NCBI RefSeq assembly: GCF_040807025.1
Contig: NC_090968.1
Span: forward strand, 7,305,906-7,369,905
Source of the DNA: Struthio camelus
Lineage: Eukaryota > Chordata > Aves > Struthioniformes > Struthionidae
Length of the DNA stretch: 64,000 nt
Reading direction: 5' to 3'
The translations under genes were made by a program, and so were the position numbers. Positions 4,801-64,000 of the stretch are shown here, in pieces; position 1 is the stretch's first letter; every line of letters begins with the position of its first letter. Below the pieces are notes generated by a model, which was not told where the DNA came from, did no database searches, and worked only from the letters and a program-made list of their open reading frames with translations.

Positions 4801-7141
4801 ATTGTGGCTGAGTATGAGAAGACCATTGCCCAGATGATAGGTAAGGCCTCTGCCCTGCACCAGGGTGGACCTAGCACAAGGGTGTGCCTTGACCGGCGGT
4901 CGGGTCCCCACGTTGTCACTGTGTCCTATGTGCTATCCCTTCTCTGTTGCAGAGGATGAACAGAGGACGAACATGACATCGCAGAAGAACCTCCAGCAGC
5001 TCACGATGGAGAAGGACCAGGCCCTGGCAGACCTAAACTCTGTGGAGAGGTCCCTGTCGGACCTCTTTAGGAGATATGAAAACCTGAAGGGTGTCCTGGA
5101 AGGCTTTAAGAAGGTCCTTGCCTCTTGAGTTCCTCTTCCCTTTCCCAGTCCTGGTCCCAAGTGCAGGGTTCCCGGCAGCATGGCCTCACCTCGTCCCATG
5201 CAGTAACGCTGCGGCTCCCTTCAGTCCAATTGGTGCTTTGCTCATGCTCAGAGGACTGTTTATCTGCTTGCTTTCCTCTGTCGGTTTTTTGATACATGAG
5301 AAGAGGAGGCTTGTGAATGTCACAGGAAGTCAGTGGTGAGAGCTGGGCTCTCCGGAGAGCCCGTTCGTCTCCATATTCTTGCCACAGCATTCTCCTTTTA
5401 ACCTGCGAGAAGCCACATCCAAGGCAAGAGCGGATGCCAGGGCAATGCACCCTTAAAAGCACTGGCTCCGTTTGCACAAGGGGTTTCCATGCTGCCAGGC
5501 TGGATAAATGCTCCAGCATAAGTGAGAAACTGGGCCTATTTAAAGTTTTTCTCTGTTACATGCAGATGTAGCAGAGTAGCATCTCTGTGCTCAGTCCCCG
5601 TTCAGACGGATGTACCTTATTTTCCAGAATGAAGAAGCTTTGAAAAAGTGTGCTCAAGATTATTTAGCCCGGGTCAAGCAAGAAGAGCAGCGATATCAGG
5701 CCCTGAAAGTCCATGCAGAAGAAAAGTTAGACAAGTAAGCATCCCATTTCCATTGGGTATTTGAAAGGCAGGTTGGCCTTTTCTGGGTGCTGGTGGGAAG
5801 GAAGAGAAAAGGTGGCTTTTCATGCTTTCCTTTGGGGTCTATTTATAAAAGCATGGCAATGGCAAACCCTCAGAGAGACTCGTGTGCACAGCCCTGCCCA
5901 TCCGGCACTGGCGTCTGAGAAGTTGTGCGGCACTGGTCTCCATTTGCATTTCTGAGGTTAGAAGGCAAGAGCTTATTGACGTGAAAAGCTGCTGTTTATA
6001 ACCTCAGATGTGAGTTTAAATGGATATAATTAAGCTAGCACAAATCCCTGAATGGACTCTCTGCTCTTCTGCTTACCTTTTTTAATGGAGGCCCTGAGGT
6101 GCAGAGTCTGTTTGCAGTAGCTTAAAAAGTTCCCACATTTCAGTTGATCTCATGTTTCTTGTGTGCAAAGAGGGTAATGCAATTACCCTGGCTGAGCTGA
6201 TGTGCAGCAGCTCATGGTGACCTGCTCGTACATCTGAGCCAAGTGAATGAGGAGCTGGTTTAGGTTAGCCCTGAGAAAGCAGTTTCCATACCGGAGTTTG
6301 GAGTTGCCTAATCCAGCGTCATATGGAGTACAACTTTTCTGTACAGGGAAATGTTCCCTGGCTGCCTCCAAAGGCATAACCACTGTCTCTTTCTCTCCCA
6401 ACCCCACGAAGAGCCAACGAGGAGATCGCCCAGGTGCGCACAAAGGCCAAAGCTGAGAGCGCGGCACTGCACGCCGGGCTCCGCAAAGAGCAGATGAAGG
6501 TGGAGTCCCTGGAAAGAGCCCTTCATCAGAAGGTAAAGCTCCCACTGCTTTCTCTCTGGATTGCTGTGGTACCATTTGGCTGTCCTGAGCATCCCCTTGG
6601 TGCTGGAGGTGGTCTTCGGGTCTTTGTCCCAGAAGGTGCTTTTCTGTGTATGACTCTGTCCTCTTGCAAGGAGATGCAAGCTCTGCCCAGGCTCAGGCAA
6701 GGCTGCGTGCAGCCATGTGGCCTCCAGCGCTGGGCTGGCACGCGTTGAGCTGTCTTGGAGCACGGGCAGAGCTTGTCTACATGTGCCTGCTAATGGACGT
6801 GTGGGCTGAGCAACAGCAGAAGTGGGCAGCCAGAGGTGCGGGGGCCCTGTGCGACAAACGCAGCTGGATGTGTTAGGGGATGAGGAGACGTGATCCTGTG
6901 TTCCCCACAGCACCTGGTGCTGTATGGAGGAGCTGTGGCAGCGGCAGGCACAGGAGCCCAGCTGCACCTTCTGCTGGTGGAGCTTCGTGTGCTGACTCAG
7001 TGGCAGATGGACCTGGGCTTAATCCCCATCTGGTGCCGCGGCAGGGGTCCTCAAGGTCTGCTTTTCTTTCAGAACCAGGAGATTGAGGAGCTGACCAAGA
7101 TCTGCGATGAGCTGATAGCGAAGCTGGGAAGGACAGACTGA
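1885..7141 (+). CDS. TACC1: Transforming acidic coiled-coil protein 1, C-terminal exons (5' incomplete)
   Basis: TACC1 is a centrosome and microtubule-associated adaptor whose C-terminal TACC coiled coil binds partners such as ch-TOG/CKAP5. Eight exons are seen: 1885-1940, 4109-4243, 4530-4606, 4797-4840, 4953-5113, 5628-5734, 6412-6532 and 7073-7141 (TGA). All junctions are GT-AG and the phases join into 255 codons. Diagnostic segments include [69 protein letters not shown] and the C-terminus [17 protein letters not shown]. The GICLSES and [10 protein letters not shown] wording fits TACC1 rather than TACC2 or TACC3. About the last 210 residues are heptad-rich coiled coil. The first exon ([14 protein letters not shown]) matches the residues just upstream of the domain in TACC1. 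It begins in phase 1, so at least one earlier exon lies outside the window. The donor after 5113 (GTCCTT) is weak. PLEKHA2 downstream supports the assignment. Confidence 0.95.
3061..3083. repeat. GGA microsatellite
   Basis: A short run of GGA triplets lies in the TACC1 intron between exons 1885-1940 and 4109-4243. The rest of that intron (1941-4108) is GC-rich and I recognise nothing else in it. Confidence 0.7.
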
Positions 7142-14400: not shown

Positions 14401-16007
14401 GCTTTTCTCAGGCCCAGCAGTGAGGCAGCAGTGCCAGCTCCATGGGAGGGCAAGCTGGATGCTGCAGGCTGGGTCCCACTGTGGAGTGGATGCAGCAGGC
14501 TGGGTCCCATCGTGGGCTGGATGCTGCAGGCTGGGTCCCATTGCAGGCTGGATGCCACAGGATGGGTCCCATCGCGGGCTGGATGCCGCAGGCTGGGTCC
14601 CATCACGGGCTGGATGCCGCAGGCTGGGTCCCATCGCGGGCTGGATGCCGCAGGCTGGGTTCCATCGCAGGCTCAGCCACGGTCTGCTGTCACCCTGCTG
14701 CAGCTCTGTTTCCCATCAGCGCACCAGATAAAGGCTTGCTGACGGGTGCTGAACTGCAGCTTTGGGAGCTACGAGGGAGTCCTTAGAGAGGGGTATAGTG
14801 AGAGCTGCAGGCAGGCCCAGAAGTAAATGAGATAAAGTCCCAGCGCTCCAGCTCAGCCTCGGGAGGATTCCTGCCCTGCGATTAGACAGCCCAAGCAGGG
14901 AGCTTGGATGCACGCTGGCTTGTGCAGAAACGTGTGTGATTTCATCAGCCCCCCGCTCTTTCAGAGTCAGCGGTGTGAAAGCAGCCCGAAAGCCGTGGGA
15001 GTGTCTGTAGGACACCTGAGGACAGCCAAGGGACATGGCCTCTCCTCCACGGAGAGGTTTCCTGTGCTGGAGCTTGGCCGTGCACACAGCTGACTGTGTT
15101 CCACTGGGCTTCATTATTATTTGGATCACAGGCCCCCCCCCCCAGGGTTCTGCATGTCAGGCATTTTTATAACTTATTCCAGGCAGAAAATGGCTGCTTT
15201 TGACCTGACTGGCTGATAGAAAGCAGTGGAAACAAAAACCAGCAAAGAAACAAAGTCAAGCCAGATTCCAAGATGTTTTGCTTTTTGTGCACTGGGATTT
15301 TTCCCACCTGTTTTTTTTCCAAGTTTTTGGTCTTCAGAGACAGGCTTTCAGTCTGAGATAAATTACAACATTTTTCTGGCATAAGGAAAGTCCTTCTTTG
15401 TGACATGCTGTTCTGATCCTCCAGAAATGCATTAACTCCCTCAGAGCCACCTTGCAGTTGCAGGACGGCAGCGCAGCCTGCGAGACCGAGCACAGATGGG
15501 GCCTGAAATCCAGCCCTCGCTCTGCCTCGGATGCGCTCTGTGTGCGGGTTTTTTGGCCCGGCTATCGGTATTTGCTCATTTCTTTCGCGGGGGGTTGCGC
15601 GATGTGCTCTGGGGCGGTGTGGAGCAATGCTGCTGCATGGACACCCTTCGGCCATCCGACCCGGGAGACCTTTTTCTTCCAGATCTGCAGCGTAACTGGG
15701 GCGCGAAGCTGCGGGTGCTCGCACGAAGCTCAAACGGAGACCCCAGCGCCGAGTCCCGCTGCCGAGGCCGTGCCTAACCACCCATGTGCATGTGCGTTTC
15801 CTTCCAGATAGCATCATCAAGTCCTGCTCCTACAAATCCTTCTGCGACCAGGCGCGGCGCGGCGGCTCTGGAGGGGCCACCCTGCAATGCTGCTTCAGCG
15901 ACGACTGCAACGGGCCGCAGCGGGGCCCGCGGAGCACTGGCGGCCACACGCTGCTGCCCCTGCCCGGCCTCCTCGCCCTGGCGCTGGCTGGCAACCTGCT
16001 GCTGTGA
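11413..16007 (+). CDS. Ly6/uPAR-domain GPI-anchored surface protein (three exons)
   Basis: Coding exons are 11413-11470, 13330-13443 and 15808-16007 (TGA), with GT-AG borders and matching phases, giving 123 residues. Exon 1 gives a signal peptide (MPALKTLLALAVVTSLAG). Exons 2-3 give a three-finger domain with ten cysteines, starting LRCHKC and ending LQCCFSDDCN, the CCxxDxCN signature of the family. The C-terminus after the domain is a short hydrophilic spacer (GPQRGPRSTGG) followed by a hydrophobic tail without a basic end, as expected for a GPI signal. One-domain, three-exon structure is typical of the LY6 family. I cannot assign an orthologue: LYPD2, LY6D and PSCA are all comparable in design. 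Partner and function are unknown. The gene lies between TACC1 and PLEKHA2, which are neighbours without a Ly6 gene in human. Confidence 0.87.
12318..12355. repeat. (CTT)n microsatellite followed by a poly-T run
   Basis: About eight CTT triplets pass into about 16 T residues in intron 1 of the Ly6-type gene. The rest of that intron (11471-13329) has a CpG-rich first 350 bases and otherwise nothing I recognise. Confidence 0.8.
14453..14672. repeat. 31-bp minisatellite, seven copies
   Basis: The GGATG of successive units places ATG at 14459, 14490, 14521, 14552, 14583, 14614 and 14645, an exact 31-bp spacing. Each unit carries GCAGGCTGGGTCCCAT with a few substitutions between copies. It lies in intron 2 of the Ly6-type gene and produces repeated tryptophan/glycine-rich reading frames on the plus strand that are not coding. 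Confidence 0.92.
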
Positions 16008-27307: not shown

Positions 27308-42096
<14,789 letters not shown>

Positions 42097-45000
42097 TGCG
42101 GCGCAGAGCCACACCGTGGCTCCTCTCGCCGCCTCCTCTCCCGCCTGTAACGGGGCTCCCTGGTGCGAGCTGGGCACGGGGATGCTGTGGCTCCCGCGCG
42201 ACGGCCCGGGGGCCGGTTCGCTCATGGCACGTAGCACCCGGGCACGCAGGACTTTTGCCGTGCCGTGTCCTTAGCTCTCTGTGTTGTCTGGGCTGGAAAA
42301 GCTGGTCTCCTCAGTACTTCTGCTGATGTGTCTGCTCAGTGCTTTGGACCAAATTTATCCAGTTACCTTTATGGGGATGAAATTGGCCTGTTTCCTCCAC
42401 TGTAGCTCGCTCTTGTAATACAAGATTCAGCCAGACCCGCTTGCTTGATGTCCTTGCTCTTCCAGAAGGAAGCGAGGACTCATTTTCCTGATAGCCCCTA
42501 AGATTTTAGCCCTTTGGCGTCCCAGCAAGCCTGATAGAGGCTGGCTGCAGAAGCAATTTGCAACCGAGGTAGTTCTTTACATGTTTTGGAAAGCTGCTGC
42601 TGCACAGGGCGACCTTGCATGCGTTTTGTGCCTCCGTCGTTATTTCTTTATAAAGTGAGAAGCCTAAGGTCCCTGGCATTGCCTGGCAGAAGTGTGTCCT
42701 TTTCAGCAAATGCATAATTTCCCTGAAAAGGCAAACCTGGAGGACGCATAGCAGGAGATTTCAGAAGTGTGAAGGGAGAGTGAGGTGGCCTTGCTTGTTT
42801 TTAGCAGTAGAACATGTATCTCCCCTTTCATGCTGCTCGCTCTTCCCCAAACAGTCCGGATACAGAGCCAGGGAGACACACCACCACATTGCTGCATTCA
42901 CAAAAAGAAAAAGCACTGCAACTTCAATATTGACATCTTTTTTCTAGGAGACCAGCTCTTTACACTGCCTGACTAATGGTATATTAACAGATCTGTTTTC
43001 TTTTAATTAATTCTTTTTATATCTGTGGCCATTGTATCATGTTAAACTCTGGCAGACTCCATGGTCAGGAGCCTAGGAAAACTTTATTGGTACTTTTAAA
43101 ATGTGAGTCAAGGTTAGGACCACTTCTTGGCAGACTGCAAGTGTAACAGTGACTATAGGTAACAAGATTATTCTCAGGTATATTTTCAGTTTTGCACTGC
43201 ATACATTTGGGCACCAAAAATATTACATGCCTGAATGGTGAAGTGCTTTTAACAAGAAGTAATGAAAGCAGAGGATTTAAATGAAACTTGGAAGACTTGT
43301 CCAACCAACTTGCCTGTTACCTGACTTGAAATGAAAATGAGCAGAACTTTTTTAAGCAATGTGAACTTCTCATTTCCATAACCAAATAAGCTCATATATG
43401 AGGTGTGACAAACAGTGCATAGAAAATTCAAGTATTCCATAAGCAGAGAGTTGTCTGAAATCTTCACCCATAAAAGGTGTGTATAATATCTGGGATACTG
43501 AGAGATAGCACACCTTTGCTGTCCTTGCTCCCTGTGAGGGGTTTTAACGGTAGTTTATGTTGCTGTGACTCTGTGAAAGCTGCATCGAGCCTATCCAGGC
43601 ATACGTGCTGCTTCAGCCTTGCTTTGAGGGCTCTTGTTCAGGCCTGAACCTCACCCAGAATGAAAGGTTATGCCTACCTTTTGTTCTGAATTGAGCAGGT
43701 GCTCTCCCATGCTCACTTGAACCAAGCTGCCAGAATAAGGAGCGTGTGCTGGCATGTTGTGCGTGTACTGAGGAAAGTAGCATACACTCAGGTATAGAAA
43801 AGCCTTCACCCAGAATTGCGGTTAATTGAAAAAAACATAAGTGAAGGCATCCCTTACTTTAACGTACTGCAAAGTGCCCTGCAGATTCCAGGCATTCCTA
43901 GCTGCTCTGCCACGTGCGTGCCTGGAAACCGGTCCTTGGGGGCAGAAGGCAGGGGCTGGAATAGCAGCTCTCCTTGTTAGGTGCCTGTGCCCTGAGCGAG
44001 GCTAGAGGAGATGCCTGCAGGCTCAGGGATGCATGGGGCCCTGCTAGCACGCATGTGAGGTCTCTGAATAAGCTGGCATTGTCCCTGCTGGGGAGCTCAG
44101 ATGGACTTCCTTGTCCTGTGTCAGACATGGACATGCTCTTTGCCATCTCAAATCTATTCCGACTGATAAATGGAGGTGGCAGGTGTTGGAATTGCACTGC
44201 AGGCTTAGTAGCACATGGCGCCGTCTAGAGTTAACAAGGCTTTCCTTTATTGTGCGCTAGTTGTCCTTTTCTGTTATTACATGTTCTGTACTCTGCAAAA
44301 TCTGCTTAACATGCTCCCCAGAAGCAAAAAATCTGATTTGTTCCTGTCCTTTTCAGGTTTCCAGCTGTTTAACAACCACGCTTCAGCCTAGTTCGGACTC
44401 AGTCTGGGACTGAGCGGAGCTTTATCACGGTTGAGCTCCGAGGCATTGATTAGGCCTGATTCATCTCATAACGAGATTAAAACCTCATCTTCCTGCTTCA
44501 ATCTCTTTTGGTGTCTGAAGGACTGCTTATCCAGCCAAGCTCTGCTGGAAGTCTAGATAAAGAGATGTTGAAACGTGGCTCAGTGTGGTTGCTAAACGGG
44601 ATGGAAAGCCTGAACAGAGAGCTGTGGTGTCTTGGGTACAGACGGCTTTTGCAAGTTGCCTGTCTCTGGGATGGGTAAGGTTTGGGCCTTCTGCTAAGAG
44701 CTACACCTGGAGACAAGGCTCCAGAGAGGAATTTTATAGCTTTGCCATGCTCTGCGTTTTTTCCCCCCCTCATCTCTTCATGCCAGTCCTGTATCAAACA
44801 TGCTGCTGTTACAGAAATCATGTTTACAGCCAAGGAGTGACCTTGCAATGGAACAGAATTTTAAGATTGTTTTGCAGCCCTGGCCCATGCTCACATTTTC
44901 AAAGCCAAGATAAGGTCGGGGATGCGTTGCTCTAGGGAAGAGAGGACCCTTCTCGGATGCTGTAGTGATACCTGGAGAAGGTCGACAACGACATGACTAG

Positions 45001-46390
45001 ATTCAGTCTCAGCGTCATTGCGTTTTTTTTTGTGTTCACAGAAGCAGTTGACCAGCATATGATTTGATAGTGTTATGTTATCGGATTGCATTATTTTGCT
45101 TCCCCATGTTTCTGTTTAGTTCATGGAGAAGCAACGAAAGGTACACTTTAGATAGCCTGTGTAATATAGTAAATAAGGCCTCCCAAATTCTTAAGGTAAA
45201 AGTGGCTTAGTGTGGAGATGCTGGAAAAACCTTGAAACTATGAGAATGAGTGGGAATCAATGCAAATGGTACAGGGAGAATGTTAATATTTGTTATTTAA
45301 TTGTAGAAAACTAGGTTTTGCTATTGCTTTTCCTTTCCTTTTTGCTTTATTTGCACTAGTGTTTGAAATCTTTTTCTTTTGGCTGACCTGCTATTTGGCT
45401 AGTAAAATGTTCTGTTCCAAAAAACTTTTAACAATTTGGTATGACTATAAATCATAAAGTTAGAGCATTTAGTGATATCAGTGCTCTGACCTCATTTCTG
45501 GAAAACATGAAGTACATAGGGACTATGGTTAATTTGTGCTTGGCTTCAAAAACATGAAGTATTGAGTATTTTTGTTGCTTTATAATTGCAAAGTTTCCTC
45601 GGGCCTGGGATGGTAAAGCTGAAGCCTGTTGCACAACTATGGTTAATTATCCAGGAGGAGAAACTACAGTGGCTCCAGTGTTATTGCAACATTATTGTTT
45701 CTCTTCTTTCCACCCTCCCTGCATCTTCAGGACAGCATAAAGGCCTCAATGATAGCACAGGAGTGTGAGATTAAAACAAATGTGCTCAAAGTTGATCCAT
45801 ATTCCAAACCAATCCATAATGCCCTTTTGCAGGCATTACGTGCACCCCTGCTGTCTCTTGCAGAAGAGGAATTTCTCTCCCCTCCCTCCCCATCCTCAAA
45901 GGACCAGACAGTAATGCTAGCAGTGAACAGCCAGACCTCGATGGAGCTTTGCAGCGTTCTTTTAAAGGAACTGTTATCACTTGCACTGTGTGTTTGCATC
46001 GCAGTAATCTTGCTTATGGATGAATGCATAGCCCCAGTAGCTACCCCTGGGTCTTGCACAGGCCCTTCTGAGAGTGATTCACTATGAGTGATCCCTGCTT
46101 TTGTAGACAGATGAGTGTAGATTTAAGGTAACTTGTATGGAAAGAATGATGTGAGAAATGGGTTTGCTCTTTTATATGAAAACTCCAAAATGGCTCCAGC
46201 CATTTCCGTATGTACTGGCTATGTATTTCAAGTGCTCTTACAGACCAGGGTACCTCGCAGCGGGCGATGCTCCACCTAACTCTCGTGGTGTTAATTACCT
46301 GCATCCCACCCTTTTGCATGTAGATGCTGGCTGCCAGGAGATGAAACTCCTTTTTTCCCCTGTGTTTTTAAATAAAGAATGAAATCGAAG
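42097..46390 (+). other. PLEKHA2: Probable PLEKHA2 3' UTR
   Basis: After the TAA the sequence shifts from GC-rich to AT-rich, and I see no new exon or promoter before the first canonical AATAAA at 46371. A 3' UTR of about 4.3 kb is inferred. An ATTAAA near 44476 could give a shorter form. No recognised gene lies in the interval on either strand. Confidence 0.5.
46371..46376 (+). terminator. PLEKHA2: Polyadenylation signal AATAAA, probably PLEKHA2
   Basis: This canonical AATAAA follows a T-rich stretch and is the first such hexamer I see after the PLEKHA2 stop. Assignment is by position. Confidence 0.5.
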
Positions 46391-47624
46391 TAGCTTTTCC
46401 AGACAGTCTGTTGGCATTATGTGTTTTGGGTTGCAATTCCTCAGGGGGCTGAACGCTGCCTCTGCCAGGGGAACAGGGCACAGCAGCTGCAGCAGAGCCT
46501 CCGTACCCCTGATGCCAAGAAGCAGTGACCGTGCTCTCAAGAAACAGTGAAGAAAGACCATACTGTTTTTCAGGTGGGATCCAGAGGGGCCTGCTTTCAG
46601 GGCTGGGTTATGAACAGGCTGGGTTTTTACTGCGCAGCATTGTTTTCACCATCCTCTAGAGTAGCACTGGGTTGCTAATATAGCCCTATGTGATTTTGCC
46701 TAACTGTAGCGGGAGTGAATGAAGTACCTGTGTCCTAGGGCTCTGTAGGATAAATCAGGTGATTCTGTCCTGCCCCAAGGGAGGGCAGAAACCCTCTCCC
46801 AAAGCTGAGTGACGAGAATGGTCCTGGTAGGCCTTAATGATGGTACGTGGAGCTGCAAAAATAATTTCTGGCATCTTTTGTCTCATGCTGTGAGATTCTG
46901 ATTGAGTGTTGGAAAATGGTGAAAATCAAAGTGGGCCCTGCGATAAAGCAGCCACGTACAACTGCGGTCCGTCCAAGGGTGCTCTGGCCGAAGCGCAGCG
47001 AGCTCAGCAAAGCCTGGGTAAGCACAGATGGGCTCCCAGCTCTGCATCCGGCAGCTCCCAGAGGGGCAAGCAGCTGGCCGCCAGCCAGGTGGCTGACTGA
47101 TTTTTCCCAGAGATAAAGCACTGGGGGGCAAGGAGAGAATGAATGACCCTCAGTAATCTGATGGTCCCCAAAAACTTGCGTGCCTGAGACATGTGCACTG
47201 TCATGCCAGAATCCACAGGTGAGATCTTAGCCCTCGTTTGCTAAGGGTATGCCAAGGGCTTGTGAGGATGCGGCCTCTGCTTTGAAAATGTTTTTGATCT
47301 TATTTGCAGCTCTACTAGAAAACGAGGGGATAAATACTATAACTGGGTGAGAATTTGAGAACCGCTCTTTGCTCCTAGAGCATATATTTTGTAGAGGAAA
47401 CTGATATGCTGGAGTGAAAACTTTCCATCTCCAGGCAGTGTGTGTCCTCGGAGCCTGAGGTACAAGTTTAATTGCTGTTAAGAAGGTAGCTCCAGTGTTG
47501 TTTCTCTTGAGCTCTTCCATAGGTAAGAGTCCCCCAGTAAAACTCTTCATTTATACCTTTTTTTCTTTAAATATCACATTTTCCAGTAAGAGCTGGCCGA
47601 CCATGTTTCTTGTAAACTTTTGCA

Positions 47625-47670
47625 AAGTGTGCTATACTGAACCAGACCAAAGGAGGATCTTTTTATTTTT
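47625..47670 (-). mobile_element. Short CR1-like relic (tentative)
   Basis: GTGCTATACTGAACCAGACCAAAGGA resembles, inverted, the phrase found at the 3' end of old sauropsid CR1 elements (CATACTGGATCAGACCAAAGG). Only about 40 bases are recognisable. The surrounding 46391-48300 otherwise holds no identified gene. Confidence 0.35.
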
Positions 47671-48309
47671 TATTTTTTTTTAGGATTACTTGAATAAATT
47701 GATGACTAGACTGAGAAGAAGCCTGTAAAATCACCTTCCCTTTAGATTTGCCTAGGAAACTCCCCCAAGACCATTTGCAGCTAGGGGCATAAACACCATC
47801 TAAATTGAGATGGGAGTAAACTTCTCTGGGTTGTTGTTGGGAACTGTAAAACCATTCTACAGAAACACAGAAAGGCTTAGAAAGCTTCTCATATTTAAGT
47901 TGTGCCATTTGCCAAGAGAGCAAACACTGACTGCCAACACTGATTAGTAGAAGCATTCCTGTGCAATGTGGTGTAAAAGTTTTTGTTTTATTAAACAAGC
48001 TTTTGCAGAACTCAGGACTAGTAGTAATGTTTCTGTTACTTAAAAAAACAAGACAAACAAAAAAGTTTCCTGACGAGTTTCCAGTGCAAATACTGTAGTG
48101 ATGGTTTCTGAGAACTAGAAAGTAAAATCAGTAGGAAATGGAAAATTAGAAAGTGTAGTTGTCAAGTTTTCACTAAGCTAGGGCAGCTAAAATATTCCTA
48201 GCTCTTTTTGCTTTGGAAATTATAGCCCTGAAAATACAGGCATAATGTTAGTCACAGGGAATTCTCTTCAAAACATTGCTTGCAGCTCTTAGTTGCCATA
48301 CATAACAAT

Positions 48310-51300
48310 GAATTCAAACCAGTGAAACTTGCATTGTGCAGAACACCTTACTTGAACCAAGAAGTTCCTGTGTCTGGGATTCGTTATGTCGAAGGATGAC
48401 CTGACCCTCACCAGTGAGGACCAGTATGATACCAAAATCAAGGATGTTGACCACAAGCTGGACATAGCACTGATAAAAGTAGACCCTGATGTCAGTACGG
48501 CTGATCTTGCTGGATGTGATAGATAAACAAACACAAACCGTAAGTTTAAATGTAGAGCTAATATTCGGTAGGAAGGCCTCTTTCCGCCAAAGGAAGGCCA
48601 GAGGAGGCCTTGGGGGCCAGAGTCCCACCACCACCCGTTTTCACCTTCTGGTTTGTGTGGGCACCTGAAGAGAAGGCTTCTCTTCAGAAATTTCAGTAAC
48701 AGCGATCAAATAGTTCTTTTGCTTCCTCTCATGAAGTCTTCTCTCTTGCCTCTCTCTGCTCCCTTTCCCACTGTGAGTGACCAAAAATGAACTCCATGGG
48801 CTGGGCAGTTTGTTGCTGGCATGAGGAAAAGCACGAGACAAATGTTGCCCTTCTGCACAAAGGTAAGTCGTACACGTGGAGTGGGAACAAGCATCATTAA
48901 AAACAGAAACATGAAAATGACTATTTTTGAACCTGCTTTTAAAAGTCTAGCAAGTAACTCCCCCCTTCCCCAGGACGTTTTGTAAGACTGGTTTTCAAGC
49001 TAAGTTCCCCATTAAATTGAATCAGAAGTCTACTTAAAATGAGTGGGCACTCATTAAAAATGAATGTATTGCACTGAAAACATTAAGAGATGATTCACAC
49101 AGTACAGTGATGTACAATCACACCTGTAAGGGCAGCATGATAAAGATTCTTCTCCAACTATAAAGGGAAAGAATGGATAACGTTTCTGGCAGGTGTCTGA
49201 GAGTTCATAAATAATTTTTGGCATGTGTTTTAAATAGCAGAGAGAAGATGAACGTCAGGTGTCATGAACTTTAGTCCTACTGCATGATCAGGCAAGCTAT
49301 ATTGTGAACAGAAGTGCATTACTCTCACCTCGAGAGCATGAAGGGATTATTTTCAAAAGTTCTCCTCTAAAAACAGTGATACTGCGGTATGAAATAACAT
49401 GAGGAGACTGGACTTGCTGTTATCACAATTTGAAAATGTTTTGGGTGGTCTGAGCTGTCTGCTAGTTTACCTCGCATGTTTGTTAAACCAAATTTAACTC
49501 TTTCTCGTGATGTCTTGATGTTGCATCCCTACAGGAGCTATTCGCTCTCTTGTAGCGGGATTGGTTAGCTTTCAGAGAGCTCGTCCTCAAAGATTCAGAG
49601 AAAGCTGTGATCTGAAGGAGCCCTGCAGTGTAAAGATAGCTCCTCCTTTCTGAGTTCAGTGGCTGAACAGTAAATCCCTTGAACCTCAGAGGGCTTAGGA
49701 TTTTGTTTCAGCCTTGACTGTGCCACTTAGCTCCCGTACCAGAGCCCGTTGGCACCAACGATAGCTGGAGGGGTTGGGGTTTAGTGACTATGCAACCAGC
49801 CTCATTGCTCTGGCTTGTCCACAGACTGCTCTGCCTGAGCTGCTGCTGGGAAGCTCCTCCAGCCTCTGAGCTGGAGAGTTTGCCGTTGCGCTCAGCAGTC
49901 CTTTCTCCTTGCAAAACACCATAATGATGGGCATTGGGAGGAGCACACAGTGAGGGTGGTAAGGAGCTCGGCCTGAAGGTCTCAGATGTGGAGTATGCTC
50001 AGACAGATGTTGCTATCAATGTAAGATCAAACTCCAGACGCTTTCCCTGAGGGCTTGGGAACCACAGGCAGCACAGAGTTCTTCGGTCAGATTTAAGTGG
50101 GACTCCTCGCTGCCTAAAGAGTGATGCCCCAGAAATTCCCAGGTTCAGGCTGTGTGATCCACTCTGTAATTAGTAGCAATTGTCTCATGGGCGCCTTGCC
50201 TCTTTGCATTCAAGTCCACGCAGCAATCGCAGCAATACTGCACAGGGAAGTGGCATCCAGGAAGTGTCTGGTCTTAGCTCTTCTTGCTATAATTAAGCTT
50301 CTGAAATAGAGAGAGAACCAGCCACGCTGGCCTAACAACAAGGAGAGGGTTTATGGCTTAGTTTGAACTGCTGTGACACAAGTGGCTCCACAGTAACCAC
50401 AAACTTGTCTCTGCCTGTCACTGAGGGCTGGTGTGGCTCATGAGCAAAGGAGCGGGATCTGCTTTGTGCCCCTCTAATGGAGGAGTGTCATGCTTGCCTG
50501 TATTCCCTTACGTCCTGCAAACCTCTCAGCACTCGCTGTTTGGGGATGCTGTCTCTGATCAAAGACTAGCCCCAGACTCTGGCGAATCAGGTTTCTAATA
50601 AGATTAATACTCTTTTTGCGGTATGGAAGTTCAGGTGGTCCCTTGGTGAATTTGGTAAGTGTCTCTCTTTACTAGCCATCTTTTGACTATTTCTAAAAAG
50701 TCAGTTCCATCTAAAATTTACTACAGTGCATCTTGAGCAGGTTTTTATTGCCTCTGCTGTAGCCATTGATAGAATAAGGATAAAGAAGTGATGGCACGGT
50801 CACCTAAATTTAATCTTAACATGGCACGACCAGTTTCGCTCCTTCATTCACAATGAGAGATTTTCTACAAGAAGCAGCATGAAATTCTCTCCTCCCAAAT
50901 TATCTTTGACATTTTTTCTATTAGCTTTGTACACAAAGGGGATGATAGCAGTGAAGCTCACTTTATGTGAGAATATAATCAGATCTTATGCACATATAAT
51001 CTAACTCCTCACACAATATACAACTCTACAGAATCTAACAAAAATCTAAATTTCTGTATGCATTTGTTGTTAAGTGAAGAAAATAACTGCACTGAGCACA
51101 TTCTTTCCCAAATGCTGGGGAGCCCTTCTTTTAATTTCAGAGCAATTTAAAAACTATCAGCACCTATCATAGAACATTATTTAACTCCTGGAGAGATGCT
51201 TTTATATTGAGACTGAGGGGCAACTGTGAACTCATGGCAGATGGGTGTGAGAGAACAGGAGACTATTGTGTTTCATCTGTGGAAGGGATATATCAACAAG

Positions 51301-54300
51301 CCTCACAGGGAGCTATTCTAGCTTTGCAGGCTGATACTTATAATGCAAAGTGGACGATATGCAGGCAGGGCCAAACTTGCTAAAGGGCTTAGCACACCCC
51401 AGCTGCCACTGTGACACCCAAGGCCATGTTCTGACTTGAAACTGAAGCCCTTATAAAATATACAGCACAATCATCCAGTTTTTGGTGTATACAACTGTAC
51501 ATAAAAAACTTGCACTAAGCCTTGCTCATAAAAAGTTATGGCATAAATTAGTTATGCCTCTGAAAAGTACTCCCAAAGATGACAGCCTTACTGTAGGAGG
51601 GGTCTTTTAAATGACTGTTTCCTGAAAAAATTGGAATACATTTTTTGCTACTACAGATACATAGACTCAACAGCTCTTGAGCCTTTTAATCTAGACATCC
51701 TAACACAGTACTACCGATTCATTTCTGTCAACCCTCTTCTGTGGTCTCCATCAGCTACCAGTATGAAGTAGCTGAAATTTCCTTAGGATCCTGTACTGTC
51801 CAGAATTACACAACAGTGGGCTGATAGTAATTTTTACACAGTGATAAAACTCCTCTTTTCTTTTCTGTCTCATCTGTGAACTGATAGCCCATGGTAAGAA
51901 TTTCTCTGACCTGACCACTGGAGTTTCGTTCTGAAGTGATTCAAGGAACTGCTGCAGCAAGGTAGGAAGCTAAAAATGATGGCTCTGACATCGGTTTCCC
52001 TCATGGGTACTGCAGAGGTTTCTTCAAAGCGCCTTTTGCACTGTTTGGAAGGAAATATTATACAAAGGTTCACATCGCTGAATGGAGGGTGAATGTGCCT
52101 TGCATAAAGGATGTTGCAGCAACTGTTAGCGTGTTTCAAGTTGAGATTCACATTACCCTTACACCTTTACCGCAAAAAAGACACAGAATACTGTCAAACA
52201 CCAACTGACTTGAACATGCACTTATGAAAGCCTTGTTTTGCTTTCTGGAATTAGACAAAATTCCTTTCTGCTTTCAATGGGAGTATTACCTGAATATGAT
52301 CTGTGCCTTCTGTTAAGGTAGGATCTATCGTGATTTTAGTTGAGGCAGCCAACTTATAGGTGCAGCTGTAAAGCAAGTATGTTTCAAATGTGGCATGTAC
52401 TGTGTTACCAGTGTTGAGGTCAGAGGAGATATGGGAGAAGCAGAAAAATATGAAGTATCCAGGTATCAAGGTGGTTGAATTCTGATTATTTTAAGCCAGA
52501 ACAGAGAATGCTTTTGAAGCTTCCACGCAGTTTTGAATTAAAAAATTGGCAAGGAAGTTCTGATTCTGGTCTGGACAGACTGATATTGTGTACGGTGATG
52601 GTGGGGAAATGACAACTACTTTTGCCTTTCTGAATGTGAGAACAAGAGGAAAGATAGCAGACCAATACTCAAGAGTCCTCTTCCTCAGTTTAGTCAATGA
52701 CAATCTCATATATGGAAGGAATTTGAGGGCCTGCTGTTATCTGGCAGCTGCTAGGCTTAGAACATGGAGAGATGTTAATGAAGACGGGCTTACAGATATA
52801 GGATTTTTTTTTTCCATGATGGGCTTTTCAGCCCCATTGTTCCTAGTCTAAAGCGCATGGTAGCTCTATGAAGCAGACGTCCCACACACACTGCCTTGAG
52901 CCCAAAGCAAAGCTTCCAAATTCAGCTTGCTCGTGACCTAAATGGGACATAAATCCCATTCCCCAGAGAGGACTTCCTGCAAGAAACCACAAACCAAAAC
53001 TGGAATGGGCACAATTCCCTGACAATTTGAACCCCTTTGTAGTTCCATTGAAGACAGAAGTGGAAGTAATCCAGGTAGAAATTAGCCAAATGCAAACTGG
53101 AGAGTCCAGAATTTGCAGAACTGTGTGAAAACGGAAAGAGTAAGTTTGCTTTATTTTATGTCAAATGTTACTGGACTTTTACATATGCGGCTTTTATGTC
53201 TGCTTCTGGGTCTGCGTGACTTACTGTAGCTTCCTTTTCCCATTTTTATTCAACTCACTGAGTTTTCAAACTGCATCTGGTAGGGCTTCCTCTTTTGTAT
53301 ATGTGGCTGCTTGAAACTTCTACTCATTTCTGTACCGCGTGCGTTGTATATTGTACTCTGAAACAATGCTCTGTGCAGAGGGCTGACTAGCATGTGGACG
53401 TATGAGATGTGTGATTTACTCTTTGCGATTTACCCTTCTCCAAATCTACCCCCTTCCCAGCCCTTTGATGGCTTCTGTCCATTCCCTGCAGCTCATGGGT
53501 GGAACTAAAGCCTTCCATCACTAATGAGGCAAAGCTTGCATTTGGCACTTTTGTGTATTTGCCGTCAATTAACTGGGGCAGAAGCTTACGCATCAGGAGT
53601 AATCTTGTCACTGACATAAGGATGTGCAATATTCCCAGCTCTTCAGGTGCTGAGTTGATCTGCTTCATCTAAGAACATTACCAAAGTATGCAAGTAAAGC
53701 TAGCTGATAGAATAATTGTAAAACACAAACGGCTGTCGCTGAACGCTCCTGAGTTTTAGAGAACATGAATATCCAACAGCAGTGAAAAGGGATACAGCCT
53801 GCTGCCACAGGCATTATGATGAAATACCTTTTGAAAAACAAATGTTATCTAAGCAAAGATCATCAAAATAGATTTCAAATGTAGCTAAGGCTTGCACGAT
53901 CAGGAATCTTGCAATTCCTGAGGATCAACTTACAATTACTATAACTTAGTTTAGATGATTCAATTACAACTGTACCCAGTAGGTCACTGTGAAACTGCCA
54001 CACTGTGGCTGTAGAAAGTATTGGTTTTAGCTGTGCAGAAGTGGAAGATTTTCCCTTATCTGTTACAAAGTCTCTGGTTTCATTACAGTACTGGTATGAG
54101 AGACGGTGATGCAATTATTGCCATTAATGGGAAAACAGTCATTTCCACTGAGGATGCAAGTGAAGCCATTAAAAAAAAATAAGGTCCTTTCAGTTGTGGT
54201 TTGCCAAGGAAAGACAGATACCTTCTTGACTGTAATTCCAGATGAAATTGATGAAGAGCCTTCTTTCAGTAGAACTATTTTCACTCAGCTAAGTTGGACT

Positions 54301-54303
54301 TAA
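48310..54303 (+). pseudogene. HTRA4: Broken HTRA4 serine protease gene
   Basis: HTRA4 is a secreted trypsin-like protease with a C-terminal PDZ domain, and it lies between PLEKHA2 and TM2D2 in human. Collinear remnants are seen on the same strand. 48310-48495: KLALCRTPYLNQEVPVSG, then after a frame shift GFVMSKDDLTLT and TKIKDVDHKLDIALIKVDP. 50622-50654: YGSSGGPLVNL with an intact GTAAGT donor, covering the catalytic serine. About 51865-51961: LIAHGKNFSDLTTGVS, a shift, then SEVIQGTAAA ending at a GTAGGA donor. 54089-54303: TGMRDGDAIIAINGKTV, a shift at an A9 run, then VLSVVVCQGKTDTFLTVIPDEID (PDZ and end). Lesions: three frame breaks, an in-frame loss of about 16 residues covering the TNAHVV catalytic histidine, and a non-AG base before the serine exon. 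The catalytic aspartate (KLDIALIK) and serine survive. The signal peptide/IGFBP exon was not found. Confidence 0.82.
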
Positions 54304-55306
54304 GACAGTTAAATATTCAATCTTAAACTTAAATTTTTCACTACTACAACAGCAAAGAGTTAATAGACCCTAATTTTCAGAAAGCAGTGAGTACAAACCT
54401 CATATCATACCTCTTCATAACTATCCAAAGAACGAAGCAACATGAGAAATGACAGCAAGTTGGAAAAACATTTCACCTCAAGCATATAAGCAGAGAAATA
54501 GCTGGTGTACAGTAGCATCGAGCATCAACAGCAGCTGTCTTACGTAGGGATTATGAATTTTACAAGGTGTATTAGAGAGTAATAAGTCCCTTTTATGCCA
54601 TCAAACACTTCTATTTTACCTTTCTACACACTTTTAATGGCTACCTTTCAAATAGTAACTATCACATGTCTAATCTCTGCTGCGGTCTCTCTGTGGTCCC
54701 TCAGCTCAGGCTCTGTGACCTATTAGTTACATGCTGGCTCTGCAGACAGAACCACACGAAATGCCCTTAGCTATGGAGGGAAAGGGACAGGAAGAAGAAC
54801 ATGTAATTTTAACATGGCCCATGTACAACTTTGGAATAGTTGCAATGTCTGCCGATAATGCTTTCAGAACACTACCATGCTGCGGAAGATAACAAATGGA
54901 AACCAGCGCTTCCTTCATGAAGCTGGAGTTGCTGCTTTATTTGCTGTGCTGTGCCAGCCTGGAAAGAGTGGACATTTGTTCTCCAAAAGGATGCAGCCTA
55001 TACTAAACAATCTAATCCAGCTTCCCTGCTTTCAGTGGAGCTAGTGAATATCATCTTAAGCAAACGACTTAGAATTAGAGCTTATCATTTTGCCACAGAG
55101 GCTCTATAACACTGTTAAGTTACAGACCTTTTTAAAGGTTTGTTTAGTCTAGTAACACAAAACCACAGGCTAGTGGCCTGCCTTCCACCTCCAACTGCAT
55201 CTCTTATTTAGCTGCATGAAGTCTAATATTGAAAATACGTGAAGTCATATGCTCAAACCATTACAGAAACTAAGTTCAGTAACAGCTCTCTTTCCACACT
55301 TTAAGA
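54304..55306. other. Spacer between HTRA4 relic and TM2D2
   Basis: AT-rich unique sequence with no recognised gene or repeat on either strand. It separates the end of the HTRA4 relic from the presumed TM2D2 polyadenylation site; the two genes point towards each other. Confidence 0.5.
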
Positions 55307-55312
55307 TTTATT
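55307..55312 (-). terminator. TM2D2: Polyadenylation signal (AATAAA on minus), probably TM2D2
   Basis: TTTATT on the plus strand reads AATAAA on the minus strand, about 310 bases downstream of the TM2D2 stop. It is the nearest canonical signal in that direction apart from the hexamer overlapping the stop region. Confidence 0.5.
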
Positions 55313-55622
55313 TGTGGTTGCAAGGTCTAATTTTTACAGTGTTACCCGCTGAAGGGGAAAAATTCCCGATTATTTTAAGCAAGTAAGATGCACAGAAATG
55401 TTCAATAGGTAAATTAAATCCAAGATACGCACAGAAGAGTTAGCAAGAATAATTGCTCTGCAAATTAATATACAGCTTTGTAAATCCATATTTGTATATG
55501 GTAGAAGCCCCCAAGAGAAGTCTGTACCGATGCTACAGAACAGATGCAGAAGTCTGTCTCCAGTCCTGCAGAGACACTTTGCTTCCTTTGGGATCAGCTC
55601 TCAGAAGTTGCCTTCGCTCCTG

Positions 55623-56607
55623 TCAATAAACTGTGCACCAGTTGCTGCCATCACTAGGCATCAGCCCACCAGTAATGAGAAGAATCAGGTCAACAAACCA
55701 CCAGATGCCAAGTCCTCCGAGCGTCAGCAGCTTTCCCACGGCCGTCCCCGTGTGGCCCAGACAGAACCGATCCACTCCAAAGCAACCCAGGAAAAACGAG
55801 TAGAGTAAAGTGGTTATAAAATAGTGTCCAGTGTACCTACAAGTGATGCGTTGAGAAGATTGTCAAGCAGGGCCCGCGGACGGGGACGCCAACCCCGCAC
55901 CCCCAGGTGAGCGTTGCCCGCTGCAGCCCCGATCCTTGCAGCCTGGCTCCCTCCAGCGGGGGCGCCGAGGAAGCGCGGGCGCGGTGAAAGGACGCGGTGC
56001 CCGCGGGGGGGGGGGGGGCCGCGGCGCGCCCGGCCGAGGCGGCTCTTACTTGACGCAGGGCCTGCTGCCGCGCAGGAAGCTCCGCGGCTCGGCGCACTCG
56101 ATGCCGTCCAGCGCCCGGCACTGCACGCGCGTGTGCTCCACGTCGCCGTAGGCCTGGCCGCCGAGCTGCGCGGGGGGCGGCGGCGCCGTGAGGGGCTGCG
56201 CGGCGGCGGCGGCGGCGCCCCCCCCCCCCGTACCCACCTTCACGCAGCCGTGGCCCAGCTCCTGCTGCGCCGTGGCGTTCCCGCCGTGGTCCACGGGCTC
56301 CTCGCACTCCACGAACTCCTCGGGGCTGCGGGCGGCAGCGAGGCAGCCGGTGAGGCGGCGCCGGTCCCCCCCCCCCCCCCGCCTCCCGTCACCCCCCGGC
56401 CCCCGCTCACAGGTAGGTGCAGAGCACCAGCGGCGCCCGCGGGTCGCTGTAGGCCCAGGCGGGGGCGGCGGGCGGCGGCGCGGCCTCGGTGGCGTTGTGC
56501 TGGTGGCTCCGCGAGACGCCCTGCAGCAGCAGCAGGTTGGCGAGCAGCAGCGCGGCCTGCCCGCACAGCAGCGCGTAGCTCAGCGGCCAGCCGGGCCGCG
56601 GCGCCAT
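55623..56607 (-). CDS. TM2D2: TM2 domain-containing protein 2, complete
   Basis: Coding exons on the minus strand in order: 56607-56411, 56325-56238, 56165-56050 and 55836-55623 (TGA). All have GT-AG borders, and the total is 204 residues (human about 214). The protein has an N-terminal signal peptide ([28 protein letters not shown]). A luminal cysteine-rich part follows ([50 protein letters not shown]). The C-terminal TM2 domain has two membrane spans flanking the DRF motif ([11 protein letters not shown], residues 156-158), then [18 protein letters not shown] and the end [13 protein letters not shown] and HNAT are N-glycosylation sites. TM2D proteins are conserved in animals; the fly homologues (almondex, amaretto, biscotti) are linked to Notch signalling and phagocytosis. 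The last exon is nearly invariant, and the N-terminus is the most divergent part. The gene appears functional. Confidence 0.97.
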
Positions 56608-56942: not shown

Positions 56943-57173
56943 AGGGCCCGCCGTGAGGGCCCGCCGTGAGGGCCCGCCGTGAGGGCCCGCCGTGAGGGCC
57001 CGCCGTGAGGGCCCGCCGTGAGGGCCCGCCGTGAGGGCCCGCCGTGAGGGCCCGCCGTGAGGGCCCGCCGTGAGGGCCCGCCGTGAGGGCCCGCCGTGAG
57101 GGCCCGCCGTGAGGGCCCGCCGTGAGGGCCCGCCGTGAGGGCCCGCCGTGAGGGCCCGCCGTGAGGGCCCGCC
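56943..57173. repeat. 13-bp tandem array, 17 perfect copies plus 10 bases
   Basis: The unit AGGGCCCGCCGTG is repeated 17 times without a mismatch from 56943 to 57163, and a partial copy runs to 57173. Each unit holds the palindrome GGGCCC and, on the minus strand, a GGCGGG GC-box-like core. The unit has no stop codon in the minus-strand frames, so long repetitive glycine/arginine-rich frames arise there; they are not taken as coding. The array begins about 340 bases upstream of the TM2D2 ATG. Confidence 0.95.
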
Positions 57174-63297: not shown

Positions 63298-64000
63298 GTG
63301 AGTGCGGCCGGGCCGGGCCGGGCCGGGCCGACGGGACCCCCCGCCTCCTCGGGGCGGCGCGGCCGGGCCCTGCGGCCTCGGGGAGCCCCTGCCCGGTCCT
63401 GCCCCATGGCCGAGGGGGCCCCTGGGGCCCGCTGATGGGTGGGGGGACCCCCCTGCCCTGCCCTGCCCTGCCCGGTCCTGCCCCATGGCCGTGGGGCCCG
63501 CTGATGGGTGGGGGGACCCCCCTGCCCGATCCTGCCCCGTCCTGCCCCATGGCCGTGGGGGCCCGCTGATGGGTGGGGGGACCCCCCTGCTCTTCCCCAT
63601 GGCCGTGGGGGCCCCCTGGGGCCAGCTAATGGGTGTGGGGACCCCCCTGCCCTGCCCCACAGCAGTGAGGGCCCCTGGGGCCAGCTAATGGGTGTGGGGA
63701 CCCCCCTGCTCTTCCCCATGGCCGTGAGGGCCCCTGGGGCCTGCTGATGGGTGTGGGGACCCCCTTGCCCTTCCCCTCCCCAGGGCTGCGAGGGCACGTC
63801 CTGGTCCCTGGGGCTGGCAGGCAGGGTCCGGGTCCCCCCCCTTCCCTTCCCCAGGGCAGCGGTGCGGGTCCAGCCTGGGGTCCCGGCCTCACCCCCTGCG
63901 ACGTGTAGGCTCTGGGGACGGGCAGGCTCTCCCCCTGTCAGGGCAGCCGCGCCGATGCTGCCCGTGCCGCCGTGGCCCGGGCGGTCACATCCTGCGCATG
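63298..64000 (+). other. ADAM9: Putative ADAM9 intron 1 (partial)
   Basis: GC-rich sequence after the GTGAGT donor, filled by the tandem repeat and then unremarkable GC-rich DNA to the window edge. No acceptor followed by recognisable coding sequence was found. Confidence 0.5.
63395..63790. repeat. Tandem repeat of about 50-80 bp units, roughly six copies
   Basis: CCCCATGGCCGTGGGGGCCC, GCTGATGGGTG(T/G)GGGGACCCCCCTGCC and variants alternate about six times. A short CCCTG pentamer expansion lies near 63460. It lies in the intron just after the putative ADAM9 first exon. Long open frames across it on both strands are repeat artefacts. Confidence 0.85.

Follow-up and report, generated by a model that had tools for sequence, protein, structure and literature searches.

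Does a functional HTRA4 gene survive at its ancestral place in the genome of Struthio camelus? The question is raised by the window, a stretch of 64,000 nt (C27:7305906-7369905) on C27 (8.0 Mb), in which a first-pass annotation had proposed that HTRA4 has decayed between intact neighbours. The human gene is described as lying at 8p11.22 and comprising nine exons that encode 476 amino acids, and the TNAHV motif is described as fully conserved among human HtrA1, 3, and 4 (PMC8509474). The analysis presented here supports the proposed decay: at a probability that we place near 93%, the C27 locus is what remains of HTRA4, a unitary pseudogene that decayed in place; HTRA4 itself is a trypsin-like protease that is secreted and carries a PDZ domain. 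It is a gene loss of the ordinary kind, and the decay is deeper than the first reading saw.

Exon remnants and their lesions

Six of the nine HTRA exons are recognizable on the forward strand between 47435 and 54302, where their order and intron phases match those of the genome's own HTRA1 and HTRA3 (Table 1). The exon map was drawn from MAFFT alignments of the window with the exons of these two paralogs, exon 5 being aligned without an HTRA3 row. Exons 3, 4, 5, and 9 are secure; exons 2 and 8 are probable only. All five HTRA peptides quoted in the first-pass annotation are present on this strand in the order it gave. Its list of pieces was thus real but incomplete, exon 4 and the probable exon 2 having been missed, and its locus start at 48310 has to be moved upstream to about 47435.

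Table 1. Coordinates within the window of the HTRA4 remnant and its neighbours.
Feature	Coordinates	Strand	Evidence
TACC-family C-terminal exons (TACC1 by position)	4807..7129	+	Pfam TACC_C, two open frames: 7e-16, 1.1e-14
PLEKHA2 PH-domain exon pieces, open	29881..41299	+	pieces only, whole gene not assembled
HTRA4 exon 2 remnant (probable)	47435..47522	+	alignment, shuffles, tblastn
HTRA4 exon 3 remnant	48342..48490	+	tblastn, alignment, shuffles
HTRA4 exon 4 remnant	49825..50020	+	tblastn E 2e-14 with human HTRA1 fragment; alignment; shuffles
HTRA4 exon 5 remnant YGSSGGPLVNL	50622..50654	+	tblastn, alignment, shuffles
Expected exon 6-exon 7 interval, neither detected	50655..51867	+	exon DNA queries at chance level
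HTRA4 exon 8 remnant (probable)	51868..51961	+	alignment, shuffles
HTRA4 exon 9 (PDZ) remnant	54089..54302	+	tblastn, alignment, shuffles; PDZ_6 3.2e-06
TM2D2, four exon pieces, all open	55626..56607	-	Pfam TM2 8.8e-18 on last exon

To control for chance matches, the interval in which each exon is expected was dinucleotide-shuffled 100 times, with the genome's own HTRA1 exons as queries. Further controls comprised 200 local-composition shuffles for exons 2 and 8, and tblastn searches over 42.2-55.6 kb compared with 60 shuffles. The observed scores of exons 3, 4, 5, and 9 were reached by none of the 100 dinucleotide shuffles. For exon 2, the HTRA1 score was reached by 0/100 dinucleotide and 3/200 local-composition shuffles, and the tblastn match by 1/60 shuffles with HTRA1 and 7/60 with HTRA3; the HTRA3 exon 2 DNA query was at chance (84/100). 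The HTRA1 score of exon 8 was reached by 6/100 dinucleotide and 5/200 local-composition shuffles, tblastn gave nothing above chance for this exon, and the HTRA3 exon 8 query matched another spot at chance level (41/100). Exons 2 and 8, whose scores are only moderately above chance, are included chiefly on the agreement of their position, strand, and splice phase. When the pieces of exons 3 to 5 were joined (with stops written as X) and compared with the Protein Data Bank, 94 distinct sequences matched at E <=0.001; among the best 60 of these 94, the closest were human HTRA1 (8.5e-40), HTRA3 (4.8e-34), and HTRA2 (2.4e-27). The joined reading of exons 4 and 5 scores 25.4 bits against Trypsin_2, just under the Pfam cut-off of 27.6, and the exon 9 frame scores 27.2 bits against PDZ_6, where the cut-off is 27.

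Stops and frame breaks leave no open frame through all exons. Exon 2 retains its acceptor and donor and has deletions of 11 nt and 1 nt, with a TAA at 47479, 3' of the first deletion. In exon 3, an 8-nt deletion breaks the frame, the donor reads gtcagt, and a 48-nt deletion removes the TNAHVV block with the catalytic His (TNAHV is accordingly absent in the HtrA motif test); the earlier report of an in-frame loss of about 16 residues including this block is borne out by the alignment. Exon 4 keeps both splice sites and contains in-frame TGA codons at 49867 and 49951 as well as a 1-nt insertion. Exon 5 is open and has kept its donor; its acceptor is GG rather than AG, and the GNSGGPL motif has become GSSGGPL, with the catalytic Ser itself retained. 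Exon 8 has kept its donor, its acceptor is TG rather than AG, and 2 nt are deleted. Exon 9 retains its acceptor and carries a 1-nt insertion in the run of nine A residues at 54171-54179, its stop being shifted downstream; this frame break could be a sequencing error. The count of three frame breaks first given is too low: in the alignment, indels of a length not divisible by three affect exons 2, 3, 4, 8, and 9, and the acceptors of exons 5 and 8 are altered besides.

The remaining exons were sought between and upstream of these remnants. Exon 1 (the N-terminal IGFBP/Kazal exon) was not detected in 42300-47434, where the best match was no better than controls. One long gapped candidate at 46769-47277 beat 100/100 simple shuffles and was reached by 12/100 local-composition shuffles; its reverse complement scored higher (222 vs 196), which indicates a composition effect, and the candidate was rejected. 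Between 42.5 and 55.5 kb, the GC content of no 500-base stretch exceeds 0.53, in contrast to the GC-rich exon 1 of the genome's own HTRA1. HTRA4 thus seems to have lost its promoter and first exon. DNA queries with exon 6 of HTRA1, HTRA2, and HTRA3 were at chance in the interval between exons 5 and 8 (62-96/100 shuffles), as were those with exon 7 of HTRA1 and HTRA3 (28-91/100), and tblastn with exon 7 was at chance level over 42.2-55.6 kb. The best tblastn match to exon 6 over this range, at 47786-47827 (18.9 bits; reached by 2/60 shuffles with HTRA1 and 3/60 with HTRA3) lies 5' of exon 3, out of order, and is taken as chance. No repeats of at least 25 nt were reported in 42200-55600.

Judged from these lesions, an active protease from the locus would be impossible, because exon 3 lacks the His block, exon 4 contains stops, two acceptors are lost, and exons 1, 6, and 7 went undetected. 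Some splice donors and acceptors do persist, as would suit a locus that no longer codes for protein but is retained for a non-coding transcript or an enhancer; against this, the window holds no Rfam family at gathering score, which is weak evidence, and we regard such a retained role as quite improbable. Less probable still in our estimation is a working HTRA4 broken by assembly or base-calling errors. Homopolymer-type errors are common in long-read assemblies, and one frame break sits in the A9 run, but the two in-frame TGA codons, the two altered acceptors, the deletions of 8, 11, and 48 nt, and the three undetected exons are not homopolymer errors; conserved residues are eroded too, and the adjoining TM2D2 has four open exon pieces.

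Neighbouring genes and the identity of the locus

A TACC1-like gene and PLEKHA2 lie upstream of the remnant and TM2D2 lies downstream, which is the place of HTRA4 in human, where it stands beside PLEKHA2 and TM2D2. All inspected exons of these neighbours are open, in keeping with the initial claim of decay between intact genes. A third TACC frame matches TACC_C at 0.015, under the cut-off. The PLEKHA2 pieces taken singly give Pfam PH matches that are all under the curated cut-off; joined, their best solved relative is TAPP1 (1eaz, 1.5e-20). On C7, a PLEKHA gene lies upstream of HTRA1 and in the same orientation; its matched pieces share 58-77% identity with the PLEKHA of the window. This C7 relative, identified as PLEKHA1, is nearer to the TAPP1 (PLEKHA1) structure 1eaz when alignments are compared by eye, and the gene in the window is therefore taken to be PLEKHA2. 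The middle frame of TM2D2 has no Pfam match. In human, ADAM9 follows as the next gene; the ADAM-type motif HExxHNxGxxHD does not occur in the window or in 20 kb beyond it, and ADAM9 is unconfirmed as the next gene here. The presence of PLEKHA2 in the window and of PLEKHA1 by HTRA1 on C7 fits the pairing of Plekha1-Plekha2, Tacc2-Tacc1, and Htra1-Htra4 described in PMC8983885.

Tandem arrays also occur in the window. Just upstream of the TM2D2 start (minus strand), a perfect 13-bp unit is repeated 17.8 times at 56943-57173 (100% matches). Arrays of a 31-bp unit (7.1 copies, 14454-14673) and of 59- to 69-bp units with a 119-bp period as well (63387-63776) lie farther out.

Own-genome searches with exon 4 of the window and of HTRA1, in a genome of 1.45 Gb in 262 contigs, located HTRA exons at four loci: C27, C7 (minus strand), C4 at 75.3 Mb, and C4 at 87.7 Mb. 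Exon 4 is free of stops at three of the four. Its identity to human HTRA1 is 94% at C7, 87.5% at C4 75.3 Mb, and 71% at C4 87.7 Mb, and these loci were assigned to HTRA1, HTRA3, and HTRA2, respectively, the latter two on similarity. All nine exons of HTRA1 were read and are open; HTRA3 was read for the most part and HTRA2 in part, and the integrity of both refers to those parts. A weak match on C10 (E 0.85) contains one TGA. No fifth HTRA locus appeared among the best-scoring candidates. An intact HTRA4 elsewhere in the genome, which the first-pass annotation had named as grounds for abandoning its reading, was likewise sought, and none was present among those candidates; a functional copy may lie in unassembled sequence. 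Because a decayed HTRA4 is in place, the other three loci are HTRA1, HTRA2, and HTRA3, and no further HTRA4-like copy was seen among the best candidates, the designation of unitary pseudogene stands.

Two further Trypsin_2 matches, on C11 and C1, were set aside as other serine proteases; each is a single open frame with GASGSGVY and without GNSGG. The frames span 1312-2415 of the C11 extract (L004) and 1312-2472 of the C1 extract (L005), with lengths of 367 and 386 amino acids, and we take them to resemble the PRSS23/PRSS35 type.

Paralogs were compared over 183 positions drawn from the tail of exon 3 and from exons 4, 5, 8, and 9. The window is identical to the genome's own HTRA1 at 100/180 residues, to HTRA2 at 84/180, and to HTRA3 at 80/180. 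HtrA1 and HtrA4 are reported to be closest to each other, and the elephant shark to have members of all four HtrA families (PMC5823240). The nearness of HTRA1 to the window fits the first of these reports and supports the identity as HTRA4. The name accordingly follows from the neighbourhood, from elimination, and from closeness to HTRA1, the comparison being with the genome's own HTRA1, HTRA2, and HTRA3. The remnant resembles human HTRA4 in its PLEKHA2/TM2D2 neighbourhood, in a nine-exon HTRA structure like that of the genome's own HTRA1, and in a PDZ-coding last exon, whereas it differs in lacking the His block and exons 1, 6, and 7, in the stops of exon 4, and in the altered GNSGG. It shares exon boundaries and phases with the HTRA1 of C7, whose exons, in contrast, are open and which adjoins PLEKHA1. 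If the true HTRA4 were absent or located elsewhere and the remnant were a decayed duplicate of HTRA1 or of some other HTRA, this would account for HTRA1 being the nearest own paralog; such a reading is scarcely credible, as the locus adjoins PLEKHA2 rather than PLEKHA1, the identity to HTRA1 is too distant for a recent copy, introns kept at HTRA positions disfavour a retrocopy, and the own-genome searches gave no further HTRA locus among their best candidates.

Age and tolerance of the loss

Decay of HTRA4 in place is also visible in its conserved residues. The genome's own HTRA1, HTRA2, and HTRA3 share 83 identical residues over the compared blocks; 63 of these are retained in the window, and stop codons account for two of the 20 changes. 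At positions identical in a given pair of functional paralogs, the remaining paralog retains 83/99, 83/119, and 83/99 residues, as against 67, 75, and 69, respectively, for the window. The ratio of differences at third codon positions to those at first and second positions carries little weight either way: it is 1.11 between the window and HTRA1 (compared with 1.62 for HTRA3-HTRA1 and 1.29 for HTRA2-HTRA1). If all 20 changes postdate inactivation, they amount to an estimated 0.1 change per non-synonymous site. With an avian neutral rate near 2e-9 per year, the time since inactivation would have an upper limit of some tens of millions of years, which is a rough bound and not a date.

An ancestral HTRA4 would have been inherited in place and then have lost its function, after which nonsense, frameshift, and splice lesions would accumulate and exons be lost. 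The loss was probably tolerated, possibly through the persistence of HTRA1 and HTRA3, which are likewise secreted; it is plausibly neutral, these two perhaps covering for HTRA4. Htra4-null mice are described as having normal placentas and normal fertility, and abundant placental expression of HTRA4 as likely specific to humans or primates (PMC8509474); a loss is thus tolerable and not very surprising. The knockout is likewise given as normal and fertile in PMC5496872, with the remark that no report was made on subtle defects of the placenta. Set against this, work in human cell lines has tied HTRA4 to trophoblast invasion and fusion (PMC8509474, PMC11988414). A link between the fate of the gene and egg-laying finds no support in the present results.

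It is conceivable, though on balance doubtful, that HTRA4 disappeared from a wide clade of birds tens of millions of years ago, so that the sole secreted HTRAs there are HTRA1 and HTRA3. If so, primates would have recruited HTRA4 to its placental use late, the gene being dispensable to other amniotes, and a loss common to birds would offer a natural knockout for the pre-placental role of HTRA4 and for compensation by HTRA1 and HTRA3. The wider interest of the loss hinges on the number of birds that share it; in its own right, it is a well-anchored case in which a small protease family, studied in human pre-eclampsia, has lost a member. Literature on HTRA4 with birds, lizards, gene loss, and pseudogenes describes no avian HTRA4 loss in its titles and the beginnings of its abstracts, supplements excluded. 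The term "htra" is absent from the main text of a zebra finch protease survey (PMC2865498) and from that of PMC4290089. A comparable case in another gene is STK33, likewise an avian unitary pseudogene, which is described as such in neognath birds and whose loss has been traced over bird groups (PMC4509753).
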